Origin: Rhodospirillaceae bacterium SYSU D60007
Lineage (GTDB): Bacteria; Pseudomonadota; Alphaproteobacteria; Reyranellales; Reyranellaceae
Assembly: GCA_003574685.1 (NCBI GenBank)
Contig: QOCQ01000004.1
Span: 186,001 to 250,000 of the forward strand
Length of the DNA stretch: 64,000 nt
Direction: 5' to 3'
Below, piece after piece: positions 37,474 through 64,000 of this stretch (position 1 is the stretch's first letter; the number at the start of each line of letters is the position of its first letter). Under the pieces are notes generated by a model. The model was given only the letters and a program-made list of their open reading frames with translations. It had not been told where the DNA came from and ran no database searches. Both the position numbers and the translations under genes were made by a program.

Positions 37474-38577
37474 TCAAGTGAGCCGCAGGGCTGCGACGGG
37501 GAGGGGCCTTTCCTTGCCGCGCAGGTGGGCTGCCTTCAGCGGCTGCACGGCGAGTCCGGCCGGCAGGCGCAGCCGGGCTGCCAGATCACCGGAGACGACC
37601 ACGTCGAGGCCGCGCTCGCGGGCCACGTCCATCAGCCGCGCCGCGGTGTTCAGGGTGTCGCCGACGAAGGCGATCTCTCGTTTCATGGCCCCCATTTCGC
37701 CGGCCACGATCTCGCCGGCATGCAGCACCGCGCGAAAGCCTGGCACAAAGCCAAAGCGCTGGCTGAATTCCGCGGCCGTGCGTTGGAGACGGCGCTCTAA
37801 GCCGAAGGGACAGAGCGCGCACCGGGCGCCGCGCAAGGCCATGTCCTCGGGCCAGGTCAGGATCGCCTCGTCGCCGATGTACTTGTGGATCTCCGCGCCG
37901 TGATCGTAAGCCGCATCAGCGACGCTGCGGAAAAAGCTATTCAGAAGCTGGTGGAAGCGGAGATCGCCCAGACGTTCGGCCGCGGCGGTCGAATCCTTCA
38001 TGTCGATCATGAGAAAGACGCGGCGCTCCTGGCGGGGCTGCAAATAGCGGCCGGTCAGCACGCGCCGCATTTCGCGAAAGCCGACGAGGCGGCCGATCTC
38101 GACAATCACGTTGATCACGATTGACATGCCGCCGGCAAAGGCCATGATCTCGAAGAAGCGCCGGTCGAACGCCATGGACTGGGGGTTCACGGGATCGAAC
38201 AGCAGCCGGCAGAGCTGGATCGATGCCACGATGAGGACGATGTAGGCAGCGATTTTCACCAGCAGGTAAACCCAGAACGGCCAGGTCCGCATCCTGCGCA
38301 TCAGATGCGATCGGCTGCCGGCCACCTCGATCCAGATTACCGGGACGGAAACCATCAGCGAATTGACGATTCCCTGAAGCCCGCTCAGCAAGCGGTCATC
38401 CAGTTCCGGGTCCGAGGCCATCACGACCCCAAAACCAAAGCTGATGGCCGCGCCGATCCCGGCGATCGCGCGCACGATCCGCCACTCCGCACGGCGCTGG
38501 TTACGGTCCTCGGCGTCGAGCAGGGCCGCGGCGATGCCGCTGCTGTCGGATGAAGCCGCCGGCGCCGGCATTGTCAT
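37474..38577 (-). CDS. Membrane-bound class III adenylate/guanylate cyclase
   Basis: 367 residues with four or so hydrophobic helices in the first ~180 residues ('FWVYLLVKIAAYIVLIVASI' among them) and a C-terminal class III cyclase domain. The metal Asp is in 'LMIDMKDSTAAAERL' and a second Asp in 'HKYIGDEAILTWP'. The transition-state region is 'VGDTLNTAARL', with Asn and Arg present, so the enzyme is likely active, making cAMP. The start ATG at 38577 overlaps the upstream threonine-dehydratase stop by 4 bases, giving coupled translation. Confidence 0.88.
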   Translation of the reverse strand: MTMPAPAASSDSSGIAAALLDAEDRNQRRAEWRIVRAIAGIGAAISFGFGVVMASDPELDDRLLSGLQGIVNSLMVSVPVIWIEVAGSRSHLMRRMRTWPFWVYLLVKIAAYIVLIVASIQLCRLLFDPVNPQSMAFDRRFFEIMAFAGGMSIVINVIVEIGRLVGFREMRRVLTGRYLQPRQERRVFLMIDMKDSTAAAERLGDLRFHQLLNSFFRSVADAAYDHGAEIHKYIGDEAILTWPEDMALRGARCALCPFGLERRLQRTAAEFSQRFGFVPGFRAVLHAGEIVAGEMGAMKREIAFVGDTLNTAARLMDVARERGLDVVVSGDLAARLRLPAGLAVQPLKAAHLRGKERPLPVAALRLT

Positions 38578-39575
38578 CCGGACTGTGGGCGCGCTGCGGT
38601 GGCAAGCGCCGCGCGGAACATTTCGCCATCGACGTTGCCGCCGGAGCAGATGACGCAGACCGTACGGTCCTTGACTGGCAGGCGCTCCTTCAGGACACAG
38701 GCAAGCCCCACGGCGCCGCCAGGTTCCACCACCAGCTTGAATTCGCGGAATGCCAGCTCCATGGCGGCAGCGACCTCCTCGTCGGTGGCGACGAGGCTGC
38801 CGGCCAGGTGACGCTTCGCCAGCGGGAAGGTGTAGTTGCCGGGGCAGGGGGCCAGCAGGGCATCGCAGAACGAGCCGGTGAGACGCTCGTTGCGCTGGAT
38901 CGTGCCTGATGCCAGCGACCGCGCCAGATCGTCGAAGCCCGCCGGTTCGGCTGCGAAACACTGCGTTTGCGGACTGATCGCCTTCACCGCCATCGCAATG
39001 CCCGTGGAGAGCCCGCCGCCGCTGCACGGCGCAATCACCGCATCGAGCGTGGCGCCCAGTGCGCCCGCCTGGTCGATCACCTCGGAGCCGATCGTACCCT
39101 GGCCCGCGATGATCCAGGGATGATCGTAGGGCGGGACCGGCGTGCGGCCTTCACGATCGGCCAGTGCGCGTGCGATGGCCTCGCGATCGTCCTTGAGGCG
39201 GTCATAGAACACCACCCGCGCGCCGCTCGCCCGGGTATTGGCGACCTTGATGGCAGGCGCATCGTGCGGCATCACGATCGTGGCTGGCGTCCTGAGCGCG
39301 CGTGCGGCCTCGGCCACGCCCTGCGCGTGATTGCCGGACGACCAGGCGACGACGCCGGGCTGCCGCTGCGCCGCGCCGAGCTGGCTGATGAAATTGTAGG
39401 CGCCGCGGAACTTGAACGAGCCCGTGCGCTGAAGTGGCTCCGCCTTGATCAGCAATCTGCCGCCGAGACGGTCGTTGACGCGGGGGTTCTCCAGCAGCGG
39501 CGTACGGATCGCGGCGCCCTCGATGCGCTGCGCGGCGGCCTCGATGTCGGCATAGACAGGCAGGTTCAGATCCAT
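38574..39575 (-). CDS. PLP-dependent threonine/serine dehydratase-like enzyme
   Basis: 333 residues of fold type II. The PLP Lys lies in 'RTGSFKFRGAYN', the phosphate-binding glycine loop is 'CSGGGLSTG', and 'SSGNHAQGVA' binds the substrate. It would deaminate threonine or serine to a 2-keto acid plus ammonia. It lacks the C-terminal ACT regulatory domain of biosynthetic IlvA, so the short catabolic or racemase-like form is expected. The ATG at 39575 fits the family length. It is coupled to the cyclase gene. Confidence 0.88.
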   Translation of the reverse strand: MDLNLPVYADIEAAAQRIEGAAIRTPLLENPRVNDRLGGRLLIKAEPLQRTGSFKFRGAYNFISQLGAAQRQPGVVAWSSGNHAQGVAEAARALRTPATIVMPHDAPAIKVANTRASGARVVFYDRLKDDREAIARALADREGRTPVPPYDHPWIIAGQGTIGSEVIDQAGALGATLDAVIAPCSGGGLSTGIAMAVKAISPQTQCFAAEPAGFDDLARSLASGTIQRNERLTGSFCDALLAPCPGNYTFPLAKRHLAGSLVATDEEVAAAMELAFREFKLVVEPGGAVGLACVLKERLPVKDRTVCVICSGGNVDGEMFRAALATAARPQSG

Positions 39576-39708: not shown

Positions 39709-41130
39709 ATGGCGGTGATCGAAGCCGATTTCCTGCAGCGCGAAGAGGACAAGAGGGCGCTGCTGGCGGCCGGCATGGACGCGGCCCGCACGCAGGCATG
39801 GATCGCGGCGAGACCTGCCGCCCTGTCGAGCTTCGGCGCCGATCGCATTTCGTGGAGCCGCTATTGGGAGCTGGGCCGGCAGCTTCTCGCCAGCCTGCCG
39901 CGCCGGCCGGAGCGCAGCGAGGCCGAGCAGATGGCCGCGATGCGCCTGCTGAAGGCCGGCCGCGAGACACGCCAGCGCTTCATGGCGGCGCATGCACTGG
40001 ACGTGTACAGCGCGCTGACTGACAACATGCGGCGGTTCGAGCGCGTGGAGCGGCTTGTGACGACGGCCGCCACGCTGGTCCCCGGCCTGGTGCCGACGCC
40101 GGAAGACGTGGCTGCCGAGGCGCAATACCGGCAGGGCGAGAAGGACGGGATCGAGATCGACCAGGGGATCTTCTGCCACGCGGTGCTGGCGCGGCCCGAC
40201 ACCGGAACGCACCTTTGCCACGCGATGCTGCTGCCGCGGATCGAGGCGCGCCGGCGCCTGCCGGAGCTGGAGGCGGCGGGAAAGGTCGATCTCGGTCATG
40301 CCGAGGTCGAGCGGATGGGCAAGGCCTCGTACGTCACGCTGAAGAACCCGCGCTACCTGAACGCCGAGGATGATTTCACCATGGATCCGCTGGAGATCGC
40401 GGTGGATCTCGCGCTGCTTGACCCGCAGACCCAGGTCTGCGTCATGCGCGGCGGCTTCGTCGATCATCCCAAATACAAGGGCCGGCGCATTTTCCAGGCG
40501 GGCATCAACCTGACACACATCTACAATGGCAAAATTCCTTACATCTGGTACGTCCGGCGTGATCTGGGCTGGGTCAACAAGGTGATGCGTGGCCACGCCA
40601 GCGAGACGATCTCGCCCGACGAGGCCACGGGCGAGACTCACGAGAAGCTGTGGATCGCGCAGCTTGATACCTTCGCGATCGGCGGCGGCTGCCAGGCGCT
40701 GCTGGTGATGGACTACAACATCGCTGGCGCGGACTCCTACATGACCCTGCCGGCGCGCAAGGAAGGCATCATCCCCGGCATGGCGAACCTGCGCCTGTGG
40801 CGCTTCGTGGGCGATCGTATCGCGCGGCAGGCGATCCTGTACGAACGTGGCCTGCCCTGCGCCAGCCCCGAGGGCCGCATGATCATCGACCGCGTCGTGC
40901 CGCCCGATCAGACCGACGCGGCCGTGGCCGAGGCGGTGGAAGGGCTGACCAGCTCAGGCGTCGTCAGCGCGCGCGGCAACCGGGTCGCCATCCGCGCCTC
41001 GCAGGAGCCGCTGGACCTGTTCCGCCGCTATGCCGCCGTCTATGCGCGCGAGCAGGCCTGGTGCCATTTCAGCCCGGCGCTGATCGCCAACCTCGAACGC
41101 CACTGGAACGCCGCCCAACGGAAGATGTAG
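39709..41130 (+). CDS. DpgC-like cofactor-independent dioxygenase (crotonase fold)
   Basis: 473 residues of crotonase fold, resembling 3,5-dihydroxyphenylacetyl-CoA 1,2-dioxygenase (DpgC) from glycopeptide antibiotic pathways. Matches by recall include 'NPRYLNAEDD', 'GRRIFQAGINLTHIYNG' (around residue 264), 'FAIGGGCQALLVMDYN' (around 325), 'LPARKEGIIPGMANLRL' and 'SGVVSARGNR', with the C-terminal 'EPLDLFRRYAAVYAREQAWCHFSPALI'. DpgC uses O2 directly, without metal or flavin, to make an arylglyoxylate from an aryl-acetyl-CoA. The start at 39709 has GAGAGG upstream. The substrate is unknown, and no peptide-antibiotic genes are adjacent. Confidence 0.85.
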   Translation: MAVIEADFLQREEDKRALLAAGMDAARTQAWIAARPAALSSFGADRISWSRYWELGRQLLASLPRRPERSEAEQMAAMRLLKAGRETRQRFMAAHALDVYSALTDNMRRFERVERLVTTAATLVPGLVPTPEDVAAEAQYRQGEKDGIEIDQGIFCHAVLARPDTGTHLCHAMLLPRIEARRRLPELEAAGKVDLGHAEVERMGKASYVTLKNPRYLNAEDDFTMDPLEIAVDLALLDPQTQVCVMRGGFVDHPKYKGRRIFQAGINLTHIYNGKIPYIWYVRRDLGWVNKVMRGHASETISPDEATGETHEKLWIAQLDTFAIGGGCQALLVMDYNIAGADSYMTLPARKEGIIPGMANLRLWRFVGDRIARQAILYERGLPCASPEGRMIIDRVVPPDQTDAAVAEAVEGLTSSGVVSARGNRVAIRASQEPLDLFRRYAAVYAREQAWCHFSPALIANLERHWNAAQRKM

Positions 41131-41663: not shown

Positions 41664-43277
41664 TTACTGCAATCCGGCCACGCCCATGGCGTCGCCGAAG
41701 CGTCGGGCGCACTCCAGGAAATCGCCGTACTTGCGATGCCGCGCCGTGTGCTGCGCGCAGGCCAGCAACAGCCAGTCGCGGCCGGGTGCCCGGTTCCGCC
41801 GCCAGTCGTCGCTCAGGCACTGGGCGATTTCCTGGTTATGCGGATCGTTGCCGATGCGTGTCGCCGCCAGCGCCAGTCGTCCGATCAGGGCCTCGCGGTC
41901 GGTGCTGTTTTCCAGGCAGGCCTGCGTCCAGGCGACGGATTGCGGTCCGTCGAGCGCCAGGATCGCGGCCTCCAGCCGATCGAGAATCTGGCCCATTGTC
42001 ATCTTCGCCGCCTCAGCCGGAGCGCGCACTGCGACTTCGTGCATGTCGCCAGTGTGCCGCTGATGCCAGGCGTTGCGGTTGAGGAACGACGCGGCGACGT
42101 AAATCAGCTTCAGCCGCTGCGGATGCCGGAAATTGTCGTAGAACCAGCCGAGCGTGCTGCAGTATTCGGCGCAGTGCTGCGGGATCGAGAAGTTGATGTC
42201 GGTCTGGGTGCGCACCAGCACCTGGGCGGCGCCGACCTGCAGCACATCGAGGATCTGCCGCGGCCCCTTGCCGGCCAGCAGCAGGGCGCTGATCCGCTCG
42301 ATATAAGCCGGCTCGTGCTGGTTCAGCACGGCATCGAGGAGGTCGGCGGCTTCCTGCGCATCGAGCGGCGTGCAGTTCGCCAGCATGGCACGCTCGCGTT
42401 CGGTCGTGCCGCTGTAGGGCACTGCATGCAGCTCCTGTCCTTCGATGTAGACCGTGACGGCATTGCAGGCCATCTCGTAGGTCGAGTACCAGCGCGGGCC
42501 CACCGCAATGTCGAGCGCACCGGCATAGACGATGTCGTGCGAATTGTCCCAGCCCACGGCATCGCCCAACTCGACCGTCGAGCGGGCACGGAACGATTTG
42601 TGACCCGTCGTGTAGGACCGGTTCTGGAAGGCGCGGTCCTGCACGTCGATCAGGCCGGCGAAGACCAGCTCGGCCAGCGCGTCGCGGCGATGAGCCTTGT
42701 CCTGCATCAGGCCGAGGAACACGCGGTAGGCGTCGATCACTTGGCCGCGATGCACCAGCGTCATCCAGTGTCCCAGCCGTTCCTTCAGGCTGCCGTCCAG
42801 CGCCAGCGGCTCCTGATCTGGCCAGTAGACCACCGGCGCTGGCGGCGGGCCCGGCTGCGCCTTGAAACCGCGCGCGTAGTGGCCAGGCGCCCTGACGATC
42901 TTCTGGTTCCAGATGTCCAGCCCGGTGGGGATGTACCAGATGGTCTGCGCCATCGGCAGGGCGGCCAGCGGCCCCGCCGGCAGCATGCGCGCGAGGTTCA
43001 GCGTGGCGCGCGCCGAGAGCAGGCAGTGGTCGTTGTTGACGAAGTTCACATAGCCGTCGTCGATCCGCTCGTGATAGGGCACGTGCGTGTAGGGCGCGTG
43101 TATGCGTACAGCTTCCGTCAACAGCTCCTGAAGCGGCCGTCCGGCGCGGACGAGATCGTAGTAGGCGCGACTGGCCCCGATCTGGTCGCGCTGCAGGATG
43201 CTGTCCTCCAGCGCCGCGTACAGGACGTCGGTGGCTGCGTCGCGGTTCGAGCCTGGGGACAGGGTTGCCGTGGCCAT
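41664..43277 (-). CDS. Unrecognised 537-residue protein, His-rich N-terminal motif
   Basis: A 537-residue soluble-looking protein. I do not recognise the family with confidence. A clustered His motif lies at residues 60-84: His60, His65, His69 and His84 in 'HAPYTHVPYHE' and 'NNDHC'. Further His residues occur in mid-protein ('SVTTGHK'-like and 'DNSHDIVY' regions) and near the C-terminus ('AQHTARHRKYGDF'). Such motifs could bind a metal or heme. No signal peptide or membrane segment is seen. GGGAGGA lies 7 bases before the ATG, so the start is secure. It converges on the DpgC-like gene and is divergent from no gene; ruvX lies upstream on the same strand. Confidence 0.7.
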   Translation of the reverse strand: MATATLSPGSNRDAATDVLYAALEDSILQRDQIGASRAYYDLVRAGRPLQELLTEAVRIHAPYTHVPYHERIDDGYVNFVNNDHCLLSARATLNLARMLPAGPLAALPMAQTIWYIPTGLDIWNQKIVRAPGHYARGFKAQPGPPPAPVVYWPDQEPLALDGSLKERLGHWMTLVHRGQVIDAYRVFLGLMQDKAHRRDALAELVFAGLIDVQDRAFQNRSYTTGHKSFRARSTVELGDAVGWDNSHDIVYAGALDIAVGPRWYSTYEMACNAVTVYIEGQELHAVPYSGTTERERAMLANCTPLDAQEAADLLDAVLNQHEPAYIERISALLLAGKGPRQILDVLQVGAAQVLVRTQTDINFSIPQHCAEYCSTLGWFYDNFRHPQRLKLIYVAASFLNRNAWHQRHTGDMHEVAVRAPAEAAKMTMGQILDRLEAAILALDGPQSVAWTQACLENSTDREALIGRLALAATRIGNDPHNQEIAQCLSDDWRRNRAPGRDWLLLACAQHTARHRKYGDFLECARRFGDAMGVAGLQ

Positions 43278-45494: not shown

Positions 45495-47042
45495 CTAGGC
45501 AATGAACAGGCTGTCGACCTCGATGGTGACGTCGAGGAAAGCCAGGAACTCGACATTCTCGACGAAGTCCCAGTCACCGCTCGAGTCGATGACGGGGAAA
45601 AGTCCGCCTGGAGATCCGGGTTCCAGGATCGTGAACTCAGCCAGAATTCCGTCGAACACCGCTGTATCCGTACCCTCGCCGCCGTCAAGCGAGTCCCCTC
45701 CGGCGCCGCCGGCAAGAACGTCGTCACCATCGCCGCCAGTCAGGGTGTCAGTGCCGTTGCCGCCATCGAGGCTGTCATTGTCGGCCCCACCGTCGAGGAT
45801 ATCGTTGCCACTGGAGCCGAACAGGGAGTCACTCCCGGCGTCACCGTTCAGGCGGTCGTTGCCGCCCAGGCCGTTATCAGTGTCGGCCGTGTCTTCAAAG
45901 ATCAGTTCGTCACCATAGAGCCGATCATTGCCCTCGCCGCCGAACAGCCGGTCGTCGCCGCCGGCAGCGTCCGGTCCTTCGATGCTCCAGGCATCGCCGA
46001 TCAGCAGATCGTTGCCGCTGCCGCCGAGCAGCGTGTCGGCACCGCCGCTTCCCTGCGGATCGAAGCTGGTACGGAAGGGCTGACCAAAATCAAAGGCGTC
46101 GCCGACAATCGTGTCGTTGCCGTCGCCGCCGTCGAGATAGTCATCACCGCCCGAGGCAAACCCGCTCATGCCGGTATCCGGGAACATGAAGCCGCCGTTT
46201 CCGGATGGAACTGTCTGGTAGCCGGTGTAGGCATCGCCGTACAGGCGATCGTCGCCCGCGCCGCCGCGCAGAACATCATCGCCACCCAGGCCGGTGCCAG
46301 TGATCGAACCTGCGTCGCCGATCAGAATGTCATTGCCGGTACCGCCATCCAGTTCATCGTTGCCGCCCACACTCGACAGGGTGCCACCGACAGGGGCGGG
46401 CAGCCCGGGTTCGGCAGGGCTGAAGGTGATGAAGGGCACATCTTCCCAGATGGTCATGCCGGTATCGCCCGACAGCAGATCGTCGCCATCGCCGCCAACC
46501 AGGAAGTCGTCGCTACAGGCAGTCGCGGCATCGCCATCGCCGCTCAGTTCGTCGGTGCCAGCGTTCCCGGAAATGCGGTCGCGGCCTTCGCCGCCAATGA
46601 CCATGTCGTCGCCCGGCAGTCCCCAGAGCTCGTCGTCGCCGGTGCCGCCGTCGATCAGGTCATGGCCGAAGCCGCCGTTGATGAAATCCCGGCCGGCACG
46701 GCCATAGAGCGTATCGTCGCCGTCGTCGCCCATGATCTGATCGCCGTCGTCGCCGCCATCGGCCAGGTCATTGCCCGCGCCGCCCGACAGATGGTCGCGT
46801 CCCGCGTTGCCGAAGAGGCGATCCGATCCATCGCCCCCGAGGACAGTGTCGTCGCCCGGCAGCCCCCAGAGCTCATCGTTGCCGGGACCGCCGTCGATCC
46901 AGTCATTGCCAAAGCCGCCGTTGATGAAATCCCGGCCGTCGCGGCCATACAGGGTATCGTTACCGCCTTCACCCAGAATCTGATCCCCGTCCTCGCTGCC
47001 GTTGAGCACGTCATCGTTTTCGGTGCCATTGATCAGTGCCAT
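45495..47042 (-). CDS. RTX-type calcium-binding repeat protein
   Basis: 515 residues made mostly of glycine- and aspartate-rich nonapeptide repeats (GGxGxDxLx, e.g. 'GGAGNDLADGG', 'GGDGDDLLSG'). These fold into calcium-binding beta-rolls and are typical of type I secreted proteins. There is no N-terminal signal peptide; the C-terminal 'FLDVTIEVDSLFIA' could act as the secretion signal. Residues 18-98 and 99-179 are near-identical (81-residue period), a recent internal duplication. GGGAGGG precedes the ATG at 47042. No type I exporter gene is adjacent. A catalytic domain is not apparent. Confidence 0.88.
   Translation of the reverse strand: MALINGTENDDVLNGSEDGDQILGEGGNDTLYGRDGRDFINGGFGNDWIDGGPGNDELWGLPGDDTVLGGDGSDRLFGNAGRDHLSGGAGNDLADGGDDGDQIMGDDGDDTLYGRAGRDFINGGFGHDLIDGGTGDDELWGLPGDDMVIGGEGRDRISGNAGTDELSGDGDAATACSDDFLVGGDGDDLLSGDTGMTIWEDVPFITFSPAEPGLPAPVGGTLSSVGGNDELDGGTGNDILIGDAGSITGTGLGGDDVLRGGAGDDRLYGDAYTGYQTVPSGNGGFMFPDTGMSGFASGGDDYLDGGDGNDTIVGDAFDFGQPFRTSFDPQGSGGADTLLGGSGNDLLIGDAWSIEGPDAAGGDDRLFGGEGNDRLYGDELIFEDTADTDNGLGGNDRLNGDAGSDSLFGSSGNDILDGGADNDSLDGGNGTDTLTGGDGDDVLAGGAGGDSLDGGEGTDTAVFDGILAEFTILEPGSPGGLFPVIDSSGDWDFVENVEFLAFLDVTIEVDSLFIA
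46505..46991. repeat. Tandem duplication of about 243 bp inside the RTX gene
   Basis: Two consecutive copies, each about 81 codons, show near-identical DNA: the segment GTTGATGAAATCCCGGCCG occurs at about 46677 and again about 243 bases later near 46920. The two copies share the surrounding codons. This implies recent expansion by unequal crossing-over. Confidence 0.7.
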
Positions 47043-61031: not shown

Positions 61032-64000
61032 GTGACCAAAAAATCCGATCGCAAGTCGGCGCAACGTTCAGTCGCCGTCATCGGTTACGCCCTCAGGGTC
61101 CCCGGCGCGCAGGACCGCCAGTCGTTCTGGCACCTGCTTGCGGATGGCCGCTGTGCCGTCACACGTGTGCCCGCCGACCGCTTCCCGCACGAGTCGTTCT
61201 ATCATCCGCGCGCCGGCGCGGAGGTCCCGGGCCGCAGCTATACATTCGCCGCCGGTGTGCTGGACGACGTCTGGAGTTTCGATCCGACGGTGTTCGGCAT
61301 CAGCCCGCGCGAGGCGGCACAGATGGATCCGCAGCAGCGCCATCTGCTGCAGGTCGTGTACGAGGCGATCGAGCACGCCGGGCTGCGCCCCTCGAAGCTC
61401 GCGGGCAGTCGCACCGGCGTCTATGTCGGCGCTTCGGCGTCGGATTACGCGACCCGCTTCATGTTCGACCCCAGCGCGGTCGATGTTCACATGATGACGG
61501 GCAACACGCTCAGCATCATTTCGAACCGCATCTCCTACTGTTTCGATCTGCGCGGGCCGAGCTTCACCGTCGATACGGCGTGCTCCTCGTCGCTGGTCGC
61601 GATGCACGTGGCGCTGGAGGCGATCCGCGACGGCAAGATCGATACCGCCATCGTGGGCGGCGTGAACCTGCTGCTATCGCCGTTCTCCTTCGTCGGCTTC
61701 TCGCGCGCCTCGATGCTGTCGCCGAGCGGCCTGTGCAAGGCGTTCGACGCCTCGGGCGACGGCTACGTGCGTGCCGAGGGCGCGCTGGCCCTTGTGCTGC
61801 GGGCGACCGATGCCGCCAAGCGAAACGGCGATTGCATTCACGCCGTCGTCGTCGGTTCCGGGATCAATCAGGACGGGCGTACGGCCGGCATGTCGCTGCC
61901 GTCGTCCGAAGCCCAGGCGGCTTTGCTCGCGCAGGTTTACCGCGACTTCGAGGTGGACGCGAAGGACCTTGCGTTCATCGAGGCCCACGGCACCGGGACA
62001 CGCGTGGGCGATCCTGCCGAGGCGGAGGCATTGGGCACTGTCCTGGGACAGCATCGCACCGCGCCGCTGCCGATCGGATCGGTGAAGACCAATATCGGCC
62101 ACCTGGAGCCGGGATCCGGTCTCGCGGGCGTCGTGAAATCAATCATGGCGCTCCAGAAGGGCGTGCTGCCGCCATCGCTGCATTTCAACGAGCCCAATCC
62201 CGACATTCGCTTCGACGAGCTGAACCTGAAGGTGGCGGCCCAGCCCGTAGGGCTGCCGAAGGGGCGCCGTCTGCGCCATGCCGGGATCAATTCCTTCGGG
62301 TTCGGCGGCTCGAACGCACACGTTGTCCTGCGTGAGCCGGACCGGGTGCCAGCGACGGCAAAAGCCAAACCGAACGGGGCCGCGCCGGCGCCGTTGATCC
62401 TTTCCGCCTATGGCGCCGAGTCGCTGAAGGCGCTGGCAGGGCGTTATGCCGCGCGCCTCGCGGATGGCCATGCGGCTGCCGTGGCCAACGCCGCCGCCCA
62501 TACCCGCGATCTGTTGCCGGATCGACTCGTGGTGGCCGGTACCGACATGCGGGCCATCCTTGCGGCGCATCTCAACGGCGGCGGCGCAGCGGGCACGTGG
62601 TCCGGCAAGGCGCTGGGCAGCGATCTCGATACGGCCTTTGTCTTCGCCGGCAACGGCTCGCAGTGGCCGGGCATGGGCCTCGCGGCATATCAGTCCAACG
62701 CGGCCTTCCGTGCTGCCCTTCAGCGGTTCGACGGCGTCTTCAGCAAGCTCGCCGGCTGGTCGGCGATCGAGGCGCTGCAGTCTAACGATCTTGCCGTCGA
62801 TATTCGCCGCGCCAGCCGCGCCCAGCCATTGCTGCTGGCGCTGCAGGTGGCGACGGTCGAGGCGCTGGCGGAGCACGGACTTGAGCCGGCCCTGGCCGTG
62901 GGCCACAGCGTCGGCGAGATCGCGGCGGCGTGGTGCGCCGGCGCACTCGATCTGGAGGACGCGATCCGCGTCGTGCTGGCCCGCAGTCAGCTCCAGGAGA
63001 TCACCCGCCACCAGGGCGGCATGGCGGCGGTGCTGGTCTCCGCCGGCGAAATGCAGCTCTTGCTGGAGCGGCACACCTTCGAGGGTCTTGAGGTCGCGGC
63101 CAACAACAGCGCGCGCAGCGTGACGGTCGCCGGTCCGATGGCGGCTCTGGATGCGTTCGTGAAGTATGCCGAGCAGGAGCGCTGGGGCGTCAAGCGCCTC
63201 GACATCGACTATCCCTATCACTGCGCGCTGGTCGATCCCATCCGGGACAAGCTGCTGGAAAGGCTGGCCGCCATTCAGCCGAAGGCGTCCCGCATCCCGC
63301 TGATCTCGACCGTTACCGGCGAGGAGATTGCCGGAGGGACGCTGGATGCCGGCTATTGGTGGCACAACGTGCGCCAGCCTGTGGCCTTCGAGGCCGGCAT
63401 GCGCGCGGTGTGCCGGCACGGGGTGCGCATCTTCGCCGAGATCGGCGGACGGCAGGTGCTGGGCGGTTACCTCAACGACGCCCTGCGCCGGCAGGGTATA
63501 GACGGCGCGGTCATCGACACGCTGGGCCGCGACCTGAAGGAACCGGTCGATGAGATCGTCGCCGCCGTGGCGCGCGCGCTGGTCGCTGGCGGCCGGGTCG
63601 ATCTCGACCGGTTCGTGGGTCCCAGACTTCAGCCGGCCGTCGAACTGCCCAACTATGCCTGGCTGCGCCAGCCGATCGGCTTTCCCGACACCGGCGAGGC
63701 CTTTCGTACCTATGATTCCCTTCCGCATCCGCTTCTCGGCACGGCCGTCCGCGGTGAATCGCGGGAGTGGTTCGCCACCATCGACCCCGGCCTGTTCCCC
63801 TGGCTGGAGGATCACCGGGTCGAGGATGCGGCCGTGTTTCCGGCAGCGGGTTTCGTCGAAATCGCGCTGGCGGCTGCCCGCGAAACGTATGGCGATGGTG
63901 CGCTGGAAGTGCGCGACCTTGAGATCCTTCAGCCGCTGGTGTTCGACGGGAATCGTTCGTTCGAGGTGATGACCCGCGTGTCGCACGACACGGGCGTCGT
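61032..64000 (+). CDS. Type I polyketide synthase, 5' part (KS-AT-DH...; truncated by window)
   Basis: 989 codons are visible and the gene continues beyond 64000. The ketosynthase (about 14-440) has active-site Cys184 in DTACSSS, His319 in HGTGT and His357 in KTNIGH. The acyltransferase (about 533-830) shows 'FVFAGNGSQWPGMG' and GHSVGE with Ser626. A dehydratase begins near 897; catalytic His928 sits in a H-RVE-D-AAVFP motif where the usual Gly is Asp. There is no upstream loading domain, and the GTG at 61032 gives a typical KS start. An iterative or modular role cannot be decided from this part. The neighbouring glycosyltransferases suggest a glycosylated product. Confidence 0.93.
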   Translation, partial: MTKKSDRKSAQRSVAVIGYALRVPGAQDRQSFWHLLADGRCAVTRVPADRFPHESFYHPRAGAEVPGRSYTFAAGVLDDVWSFDPTVFGISPREAAQMDPQQRHLLQVVYEAIEHAGLRPSKLAGSRTGVYVGASASDYATRFMFDPSAVDVHMMTGNTLSIISNRISYCFDLRGPSFTVDTACSSSLVAMHVALEAIRDGKIDTAIVGGVNLLLSPFSFVGFSRASMLSPSGLCKAFDASGDGYVRAEGALALVLRATDAAKRNGDCIHAVVVGSGINQDGRTAGMSLPSSEAQAALLAQVYRDFEVDAKDLAFIEAHGTGTRVGDPAEAEALGTVLGQHRTAPLPIGSVKTNIGHLEPGSGLAGVVKSIMALQKGVLPPSLHFNEPNPDIRFDELNLKVAAQPVGLPKGRRLRHAGINSFGFGGSNAHVVLREPDRVPATAKAKPNGAAPAPLILSAYGAESLKALAGRYAARLADGHAAAVANAAAHTRDLLPDRLVVAGTDMRAILAAHLNGGGAAGTWSGKALGSDLDTAFVFAGNGSQWPGMGLAAYQSNAAFRAALQRFDGVFSKLAGWSAIEALQSNDLAVDIRRASRAQPLLLALQVATVEALAEHGLEPALAVGHSVGEIAAAWCAGALDLEDAIRVVLARSQLQEITRHQGGMAAVLVSAGEMQLLLERHTFEGLEVAANNSARSVTVAGPMAALDAFVKYAEQERWGVKRLDIDYPYHCALVDPIRDKLLERLAAIQPKASRIPLISTVTGEEIAGGTLDAGYWWHNVRQPVAFEAGMRAVCRHGVRIFAEIGGRQVLGGYLNDALRRQGIDGAVIDTLGRDLKEPVDEIVAAVARALVAGGRVDLDRFVGPRLQPAVELPNYAWLRQPIGFPDTGEAFRTYDSLPHPLLGTAVRGESREWFATIDPGLFPWLEDHRVEDAAVFPAAGFVEIALAAARETYGDGALEVRDLEILQPLVFDGNRSFEVMTRVSHDTGV

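Follow-up and report, generated by a model that had tools for sequence, protein, structure and literature searches.

The Locus and Its Neighborhood

The window, i.e., the whole stretch of 64,000 nucleotides that was analyzed, belongs to an alphaproteobacterial soil genome of 5.3 Mb. An intact open reading frame on the plus strand, running from the ATG at 39709 to the stop codon ending at 41130 (39709..41130), encodes a protein of 473 aa, predicted on the basis of profile, PDB, tree, and model comparisons to be a DpgC-like arylacetyl-CoA dioxygenase. In the collections used, the closest named relative was Vineibacter terrae, whose protein is 86% identical.

The neighbors named in the first-pass annotation (a threonine dehydratase, a cyclase, and an unrecognized protein) were correctly recognized. 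The PALP-family threonine/serine-dehydratase-like gene (38574..39575, minus strand) is divergent from the dioxygenase gene and, like the gene of the cyclase-domain protein (37474-38577, minus strand), was assigned by family match. On the other side lies an open reading frame for a 537-aa orphan protein with no Pfam or NCBIfam match (41664-43277, minus strand), and a two-component pair is also found among the neighbors. Toward the dehydratase, Vineibacter and two genomes of a sister genus (g5) have the same order of genes; Reyranella does not. The dehydratase-like, cyclase, and 537-aa genes were rejected as clues to the substrate, being unconserved beyond Vineibacter-like genomes and one sister genus. 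The 537-aa protein shows 82–86% identity in Vineibacter and was detected in 30 of the 101 relatives, in most cases away from the dioxygenase gene; its structural model, built with four sequences, was unusable (pLDDT 42.6). Further downstream, 45495-47042 (minus strand) encodes a 515-aa protein consisting almost entirely of RTX calcium-binding repeats.

None of the genes for DpgA, DpgB, DpgD, or an aminotransferase adjoins the window gene, as opposed to the reference sets seen at three other loci (L190, L192, and L195). Likewise, the PglB/C, PglD, and PglE genes with their NRPS operon, present at L191, L194, and L196, are absent around it. The earlier statement that no peptide synthetase or chalcone-synthase-like gene lies beside 39709-41130 therefore stands for NRPS and type III PKS, but a type I PKS begins approximately 20 kb away. 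This gene (61032-64000, plus strand; 2535 aa, KS-AT-DH...) runs about 4.6 kb past the window end. It is preceded by glycosyltransferases and forms a separate biosynthetic cluster. As a partner of the dioxygenase it was rejected on account of the 20 kb distance and the family-wide presence of the dioxygenase.

Similarity to DpgC and Conservation of the Active Site

The resemblance to DpgC proposed in the first-pass annotation was borne out by several comparisons. The protein scored 411 bits (E 5e-123) against the NCBIfam DpgC model NF042432 and 55 bits against the next crotonase model; in the PDB sequence search, the DpgC chains were matched with E 1e-92 and the next chain with 1e-9. The score of 411 bits is below the equivalog cutoff of 530 bits, which was exceeded by no genome in the class (385) or phylum (398) samples. 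An AlphaFold2 model built with 30 homologues (mean pLDDT 87.5) was compared with known structures by Foldseek; the first 19 matches were all DpgC structures (E about 1e-33), ordinary crotonases following at 1e-9. Superposition on the DpgC chains gave TM scores of 0.92–0.93 by target (0.93 with 2np9/4ylh) and an rmsd of 2.6–2.9 over 414–435 aligned columns. The model has the DpgC fold including the N- and C-terminal parts, with the helical N-terminal region.

Alignment of 95 homologues showed E189, L237, R254, Q299, and A319 (DpgC numbering) to be invariant. They correspond in the window protein to E220 (codon 40366..40368, plus strand as all codons below), L268, R284 (40558..40560), Q329 (40693..40695), and A349 (40753..40755), and the same alignment places I266 (40504..40506) at I235 and I354 at I324. 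E189 and I235 are, we assume, active-site positions, I235 presumably contributing to the oxyanion hole. The PDB holds the DpgC mutants R254K (2pg8), A319C (5kaj), and V425T (5kah), as well as a xenon derivative (4ylh) that marks the oxygen path, and thus shows which residues structural workers regard as catalytic. The absence of DpgC-specific residues had been named beforehand as a finding that would speak against the assignment; of the catalytic and O2-site residues E189, R254, Q299, A319, I324, and V425, the alignment has all but V425 in place, this one being Leu as in the PglA-like proteins.

Membership in the crotonase superfamily (Pfam ECH_1 match) leaves room for an ordinary crotonase activity, such as that of an enoyl-CoA hydratase, an isomerase, or an acyl-CoA hydrolase, in a protein merely resembling DpgC. 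Comparison with an enoyl-CoA hydratase of the same genome showed that both hydratase glutamates are replaced, the first by Q329 and the second by A349, which makes ordinary hydration unlikely. The DpgC residues and the N- and C-terminal regions are present, and in the tree the protein falls outside the two hydratase outgroups, far from them and separated by a very long branch, not among ordinary enoyl-CoA hydratases. We regard this explanation as very improbable.

Two further positions separate the DpgC-like proteins. At position 425, Val occurs in all five DpgABCD-linked proteins, and Leu in the three PglA-like proteins of the phenylglycine clusters and in every proteobacterial member; in the window protein this is L458 (41080..41082). 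At position 238, DpgC has Lys, and the phenylglycine-cluster and proteobacterial proteins, the window protein included, have Thr. On account of Leu 425 and Thr 238, the window protein is, as judged from the alignment, closer at these sites to the phenylacetyl-CoA-type than to the dihydroxyphenyl-type enzymes. Relative to DpgC, the (3,5-dihydroxyphenyl)acetyl-CoA 1,2-dioxygenase (2np9, 2pg8, 4ylh), it shares the full-length fold, the helical N-terminal region, E189, I235, R254, Q299, A319, and I324, but differs in having approximately 40% identity, a sub-cutoff score, V425 replaced by Leu and K238 by Thr, a tree position outside the DpgC clade, and a locus without DpgABD or an aminotransferase. 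The protein appears to be a DpgC-like, presumably cofactor-independent dioxygenase encoded without Dpg or glycopeptide genes. Although it probably works like DpgC, it should not bear that name since its score lies under the curated cutoff and its gene context is a different one.

Phylogeny and Distribution

A scan of the collection for the DpgC-like gene gave 245 loci, the best 80 of which were retained. In the maximum-likelihood tree (quick search, SH-aLRT support), the DpgABCD-linked and PglBCDE-linked actinobacterial proteins formed one clade with support of 100. The window protein lies outside this clade of DpgABCD-linked and phenylglycine-pathway enzymes, in a separate group of 82 proteobacterial proteins with support of 94; some of the deep joins in the tree are uncertain, as long branches take part in them. 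The Reyranellaceae proteins are 55–60% identical to, and group with, proteins whose genes are linked to paaK.

Three Streptomyces plasmids (L191, L194, and L196) carry the order NRPS, DpgC-like gene, PDH E1 alpha, E1 beta, hydrolase, MbtH, and aminotransferase, which was read as NRPS-DpgC-like-PglB-PglC-PglD-MbtH-PglE, identical to the lpg operon. Because the gene order is the same, the plasmid DpgC-like gene is very probably the PglA equivalent, an assignment made from gene order and not from the PglA sequence. These dioxygenases are annotated merely as enoyl-CoA hydratases; that of L191, with a score of 523, falls just below the DpgC cutoff (530). In the phenylglycine pathway, PglB/C convert phenylpyruvate to phenylacetyl-CoA, which the 'Phg dioxygenase' PglA oxidizes before PglE carries out a transamination (PMC7089894). 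The PglA-type enzyme of L-phenylglycine and pristinamycin formation, with its predicted step from phenylacetyl-CoA to phenylglyoxylate (PMC7089894), resembles the window protein in Leu 425, in Thr 238, and in having as a partner an enzyme that forms phenylacetyl-CoA out of phenylpyruvate. It sits, however, in a biosynthetic NRPS operon with PglBCDE, whereas the window gene belongs to the separate group, whose members are linked to PaaK, IorAB, or Box genes.

The Tistrella proteins whose genes neighbor those for FAAL, ACP, and acyl-CoA dehydrogenase branch apart in the tree. These divergent DpgC-like proteins, encoded within the FAAL-ACP-acyl-CoA dehydrogenase operon (L193 8040-9215, also on plasmid pTM3; L048 9389-10564; L065; L066), have the oxyanion loop changed from GGG to GAA and are perhaps acyl-ACP oxygenases.

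The DpgC-like gene was detected in 58 of 61 Reyranellaceae genomes, in 10 of the 385 class genomes, and in 3 of the 398 phylum genomes. It is thus near-universal in Reyranellaceae and rare elsewhere. This distribution is unlike that of a patchy biosynthetic cluster and bears on the view that the same arylacetyl-CoA dioxygenase chemistry supplies an arylglycine, an arylglyoxylate, or an aryl aldehyde to a natural product yet to be discovered. Such a role would agree with the biosynthetic function of all the described relatives (DpgC, VemC, and PglA), with the type I PKS that starts 20 kb off in the window, and with the FAAL, ACP, and acyl-CoA dehydrogenase genes adjoining the Tistrella relatives. 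The type I PKS is not adjoining, the proteobacterial loci inspected had no recognizable aminotransferase, NRPS, or type III PKS gene next to the dioxygenase gene, and the latter co-occurs with those of BoxB and PaaK. We therefore consider a biosynthetic role improbable.

Gene Neighborhoods in the Relatives

A phenylacetate-CoA ligase gene, paaK, adjoins the dioxygenase gene in 22 of the 41 non-Reyranellaceae proteobacterial loci of the tree group, and both PaaK-adjoining members scanned exceeded the cutoff of the PaaK equivalog TIGR02155. Twenty-one of the 22 pairs are on the same strand, with intergenic gaps mostly between −4 and 129 bases and with both gene orders occurring, an arrangement that is hard to explain without a common function. 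In three beta-proteobacterial MAGs, IorA/IorB-type indolepyruvate oxidoreductase genes precede the dioxygenase gene, the space between them being occupied by a 4HBT thioesterase (L110 and L130) or an acyl-CoA ligase gene (L142). Physical linkage to BoxBC was seen in one MAG only (L106), in the order BoxC, BoxB, PaaK (reverse), DpgC-like, and FlK-like thioesterase; both BoxC and BoxB scored above their cutoffs. At a further locus (L074), the dioxygenase gene has genes for a ThDP enzyme and an aldehyde dehydrogenase as neighbors, recalling the VemC–VemE pair of venemycin.

Across the family the neighbors are DpgA, PglBC, PaaK, or IorAB. Arylacetyl-CoA is the product of the first three, and IorAB either makes it too or acts on arylglyoxylate. 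The first-pass annotation had left the natural substrate in this lineage open. The neighbors of the window gene do not reveal it, but the relatives beside PaaK, IorAB, BoxBC, DpgA, and PglBC, most of which make arylacetyl-CoA, narrow the choice, and an arylacetyl-CoA is likely the class of substrate.

Reyranella has a different conserved arrangement: next to the dioxygenase gene stand two divergently oriented genes, one for an acyl-CoA dehydrogenase and one for a trans-3-hydroxyproline-dehydratase-like protein (L043 10797-12940 and other loci). The catabolic model does not account for these neighbors. They would suit a DpgC-fold enzyme acting on another acyl-CoA, e.g., a branched or alicyclic one linked to the Reyranella acyl-CoA dehydrogenase, to give a 2-oxo acid, as would the threonine-dehydratase-like gene next to the Vineibacter copy and the varying pocket, half of the PaaK-linked proteins having His at the G297 position. 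Against this, the Reyranellaceae proteins are 55–60% identical to the PaaK-linked ones that they group with, and the active-site residues are identical, so that such a different acyl-CoA substrate seems unlikely.

Co-Occurrence with Genes of Aromatic Catabolism

Many of the carrier genomes are MAGs and the carriers are mostly larger soil genomes; moreover, the co-occurrence tests treat genomes as independent, which is not fully true. The fused indolepyruvate oxidoreductase was found in all 47 carriers versus 179 of the 385 class genomes, and BoxB, the benzoyl-CoA epoxidase, in 34 of the 37 carriers tested versus 6 of 50 class genomes, own genome included; both enzymes also act in other pathways. 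Among the non-Reyranellaceae genomes with a size of 3 Mb or more, BoxB occurred in 22 of 25 carriers versus 5 of 19 in the background (p 4e-5). PaaA, a subunit of the phenylacetyl-CoA epoxidase, was present in one of 47 carriers against a class background of 47/385, and the sole PaaA carrier (Methylocapsa S129) is one of the three carriers without BoxB. Outside Reyranellaceae the rarity of PaaA was not significant alone (1/29 vs. 47/375, p 0.23). When PaaK-positive genomes were compared, PaaA was found in 1 of 37 carriers and in 3 of 4 non-carriers (p 0.0015), a small control.

The window genome encodes two fused indolepyruvate oxidoreductases and has a BoxC-BoxB-benzoate-CoA ligase locus. On contig C8 of this genome, a single operon (L173 6596-10792) joins the genes for IorA and for IorB (of the long beta type, NF006179) to an open reading frame for a 4HBT-like thioesterase, the set that stands upstream of the dioxygenase gene in L110 and L130; this IorAB is a candidate arylglyoxylate oxidoreductase. 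PaaA was not found in the window genome, nor was PaaK at E 1e-80. Arylacetyl-CoA would therefore derive there from arylpyruvates. A phenylserine dehydratase giving phenylpyruvate would fit such a pathway, and 38574-39575 is a candidate for it; that the dehydratase-like gene is part of the same system as the dioxygenase is a conjecture. Since no partner gene adjoins the window gene and PaaK was not found in its genome, the link to catabolism rests on the relatives and on co-occurrence.

Altogether, the genes that adjoin the dioxygenase gene or co-occur with it in dozens of related bacteria point to a breakdown of phenylacetate-type compounds, and a catabolic role is probable. We favor, with some reserve and from sequence comparisons, the reading of the window gene as one for a cofactor-free arylacetyl-CoA 1,2-dioxygenase, most likely working in catabolism and not in antibiotic synthesis.

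A Possible Aerobic Route via Arylglyoxylate

The crotonase-fold enzyme, free of metal and flavin, would convert an arylacetyl-CoA (phenyl-, 4-hydroxyphenyl-, or indole-3-acetyl-CoA) and O2 to arylglyoxylate and free CoA. As in DpgC, the thioester-stabilized carbanion itself would reduce O2, and the peroxide formed would expel CoA. The substrate may be provided from arylpyruvates by indolepyruvate oxidoreductase or, in most relatives, from arylacetates by PaaK. Arylglyoxylate could then be turned into aroyl-CoA or benzoate, either by a 2-oxoacid oxidoreductase of the indolepyruvate type or by a ThDP decarboxylase together with an aldehyde dehydrogenase; for a dedicated enzyme leading to aroyl-CoA, candidates rather than a proven one can be named. 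Ring opening would be due to BoxB/BoxC. The analysis shows the intact gene, the fold, the residues, the tree position, the linkage in operons of relatives, and the pattern of co-occurrence; from these we infer the substrate, the product, and all the pathway steps, the later ones least firmly. The complete route, an undescribed aerobic sequence in soil alpha- and beta-proteobacteria from arylacetyl-CoA via arylglyoxylate and aroyl-CoA to Box in place of the PaaABCDE epoxidase, is put forward tentatively, at somewhat less than even chances.

The proposed route would be an aerobic analogue of the way in which phenylacetate is degraded anaerobically. In Aromatoleum and Thauera, the same intermediates are passed, phenylacetyl-CoA being converted via phenylglyoxylate to benzoyl-CoA, and the described aerobic route uses an epoxidase (PMC9765128). 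The IorAB of Aromatoleum can convert phenylpyruvate to phenylacetyl-CoA (PMC9765128). The anaerobic alpha-oxidation is carried out without O2 by a membrane molybdenum-iron-sulfur enzyme, whereas the proposed window enzyme would be O2-dependent and cofactor-free. With the aerobic PaaABCDE pathway the route would share the entry compound made by PaaK, but the epoxidase is missing from 46 of the 47 carriers, and the ring would be attacked at benzoyl-CoA by BoxB.

The occurrence of a DpgC-like gene outside a glycopeptide cluster, pointed out in the first-pass annotation, has precedents and is not in itself a novelty. In the venemycin pathway the DpgC homologue VemC acts outside glycopeptides, and the arylglyoxylate is then decarboxylated by the ThDP enzyme VemE (PMC5132015); PglA performs the matching phenylacetyl-CoA step (PMC7089894). 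VemC–VemE and the kendomycin DpgC homologues resemble the window gene in their setting outside glycopeptides but differ in being biosynthetic and in having a dihydroxyphenyl substrate derived from a type III PKS. Such homologues were thus already known, and it is the catabolic setting that appears to be new; a description of such a catabolic route was not found in the open-licence literature.

Cofactor-free oxygenases are few, and to our knowledge descriptions of the DpgC type are confined to pathways for antibiotics or other natural products. The homologues collected here offer many new sequences for studying O2 activation by proteins that use no cofactor, with Leu versus Val at position 425 as a simple marker. 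A catabolic branch, near-universal in one bacterial family and operonic with PaaK elsewhere, would explain how phenylacetyl-CoA is disposed of in PaaK-positive, PaaA-negative genomes, and DpgC chemistry would be part of the ordinary carbon turnover of phenylacetate and of auxin-like and amino-acid-derived aromatics.
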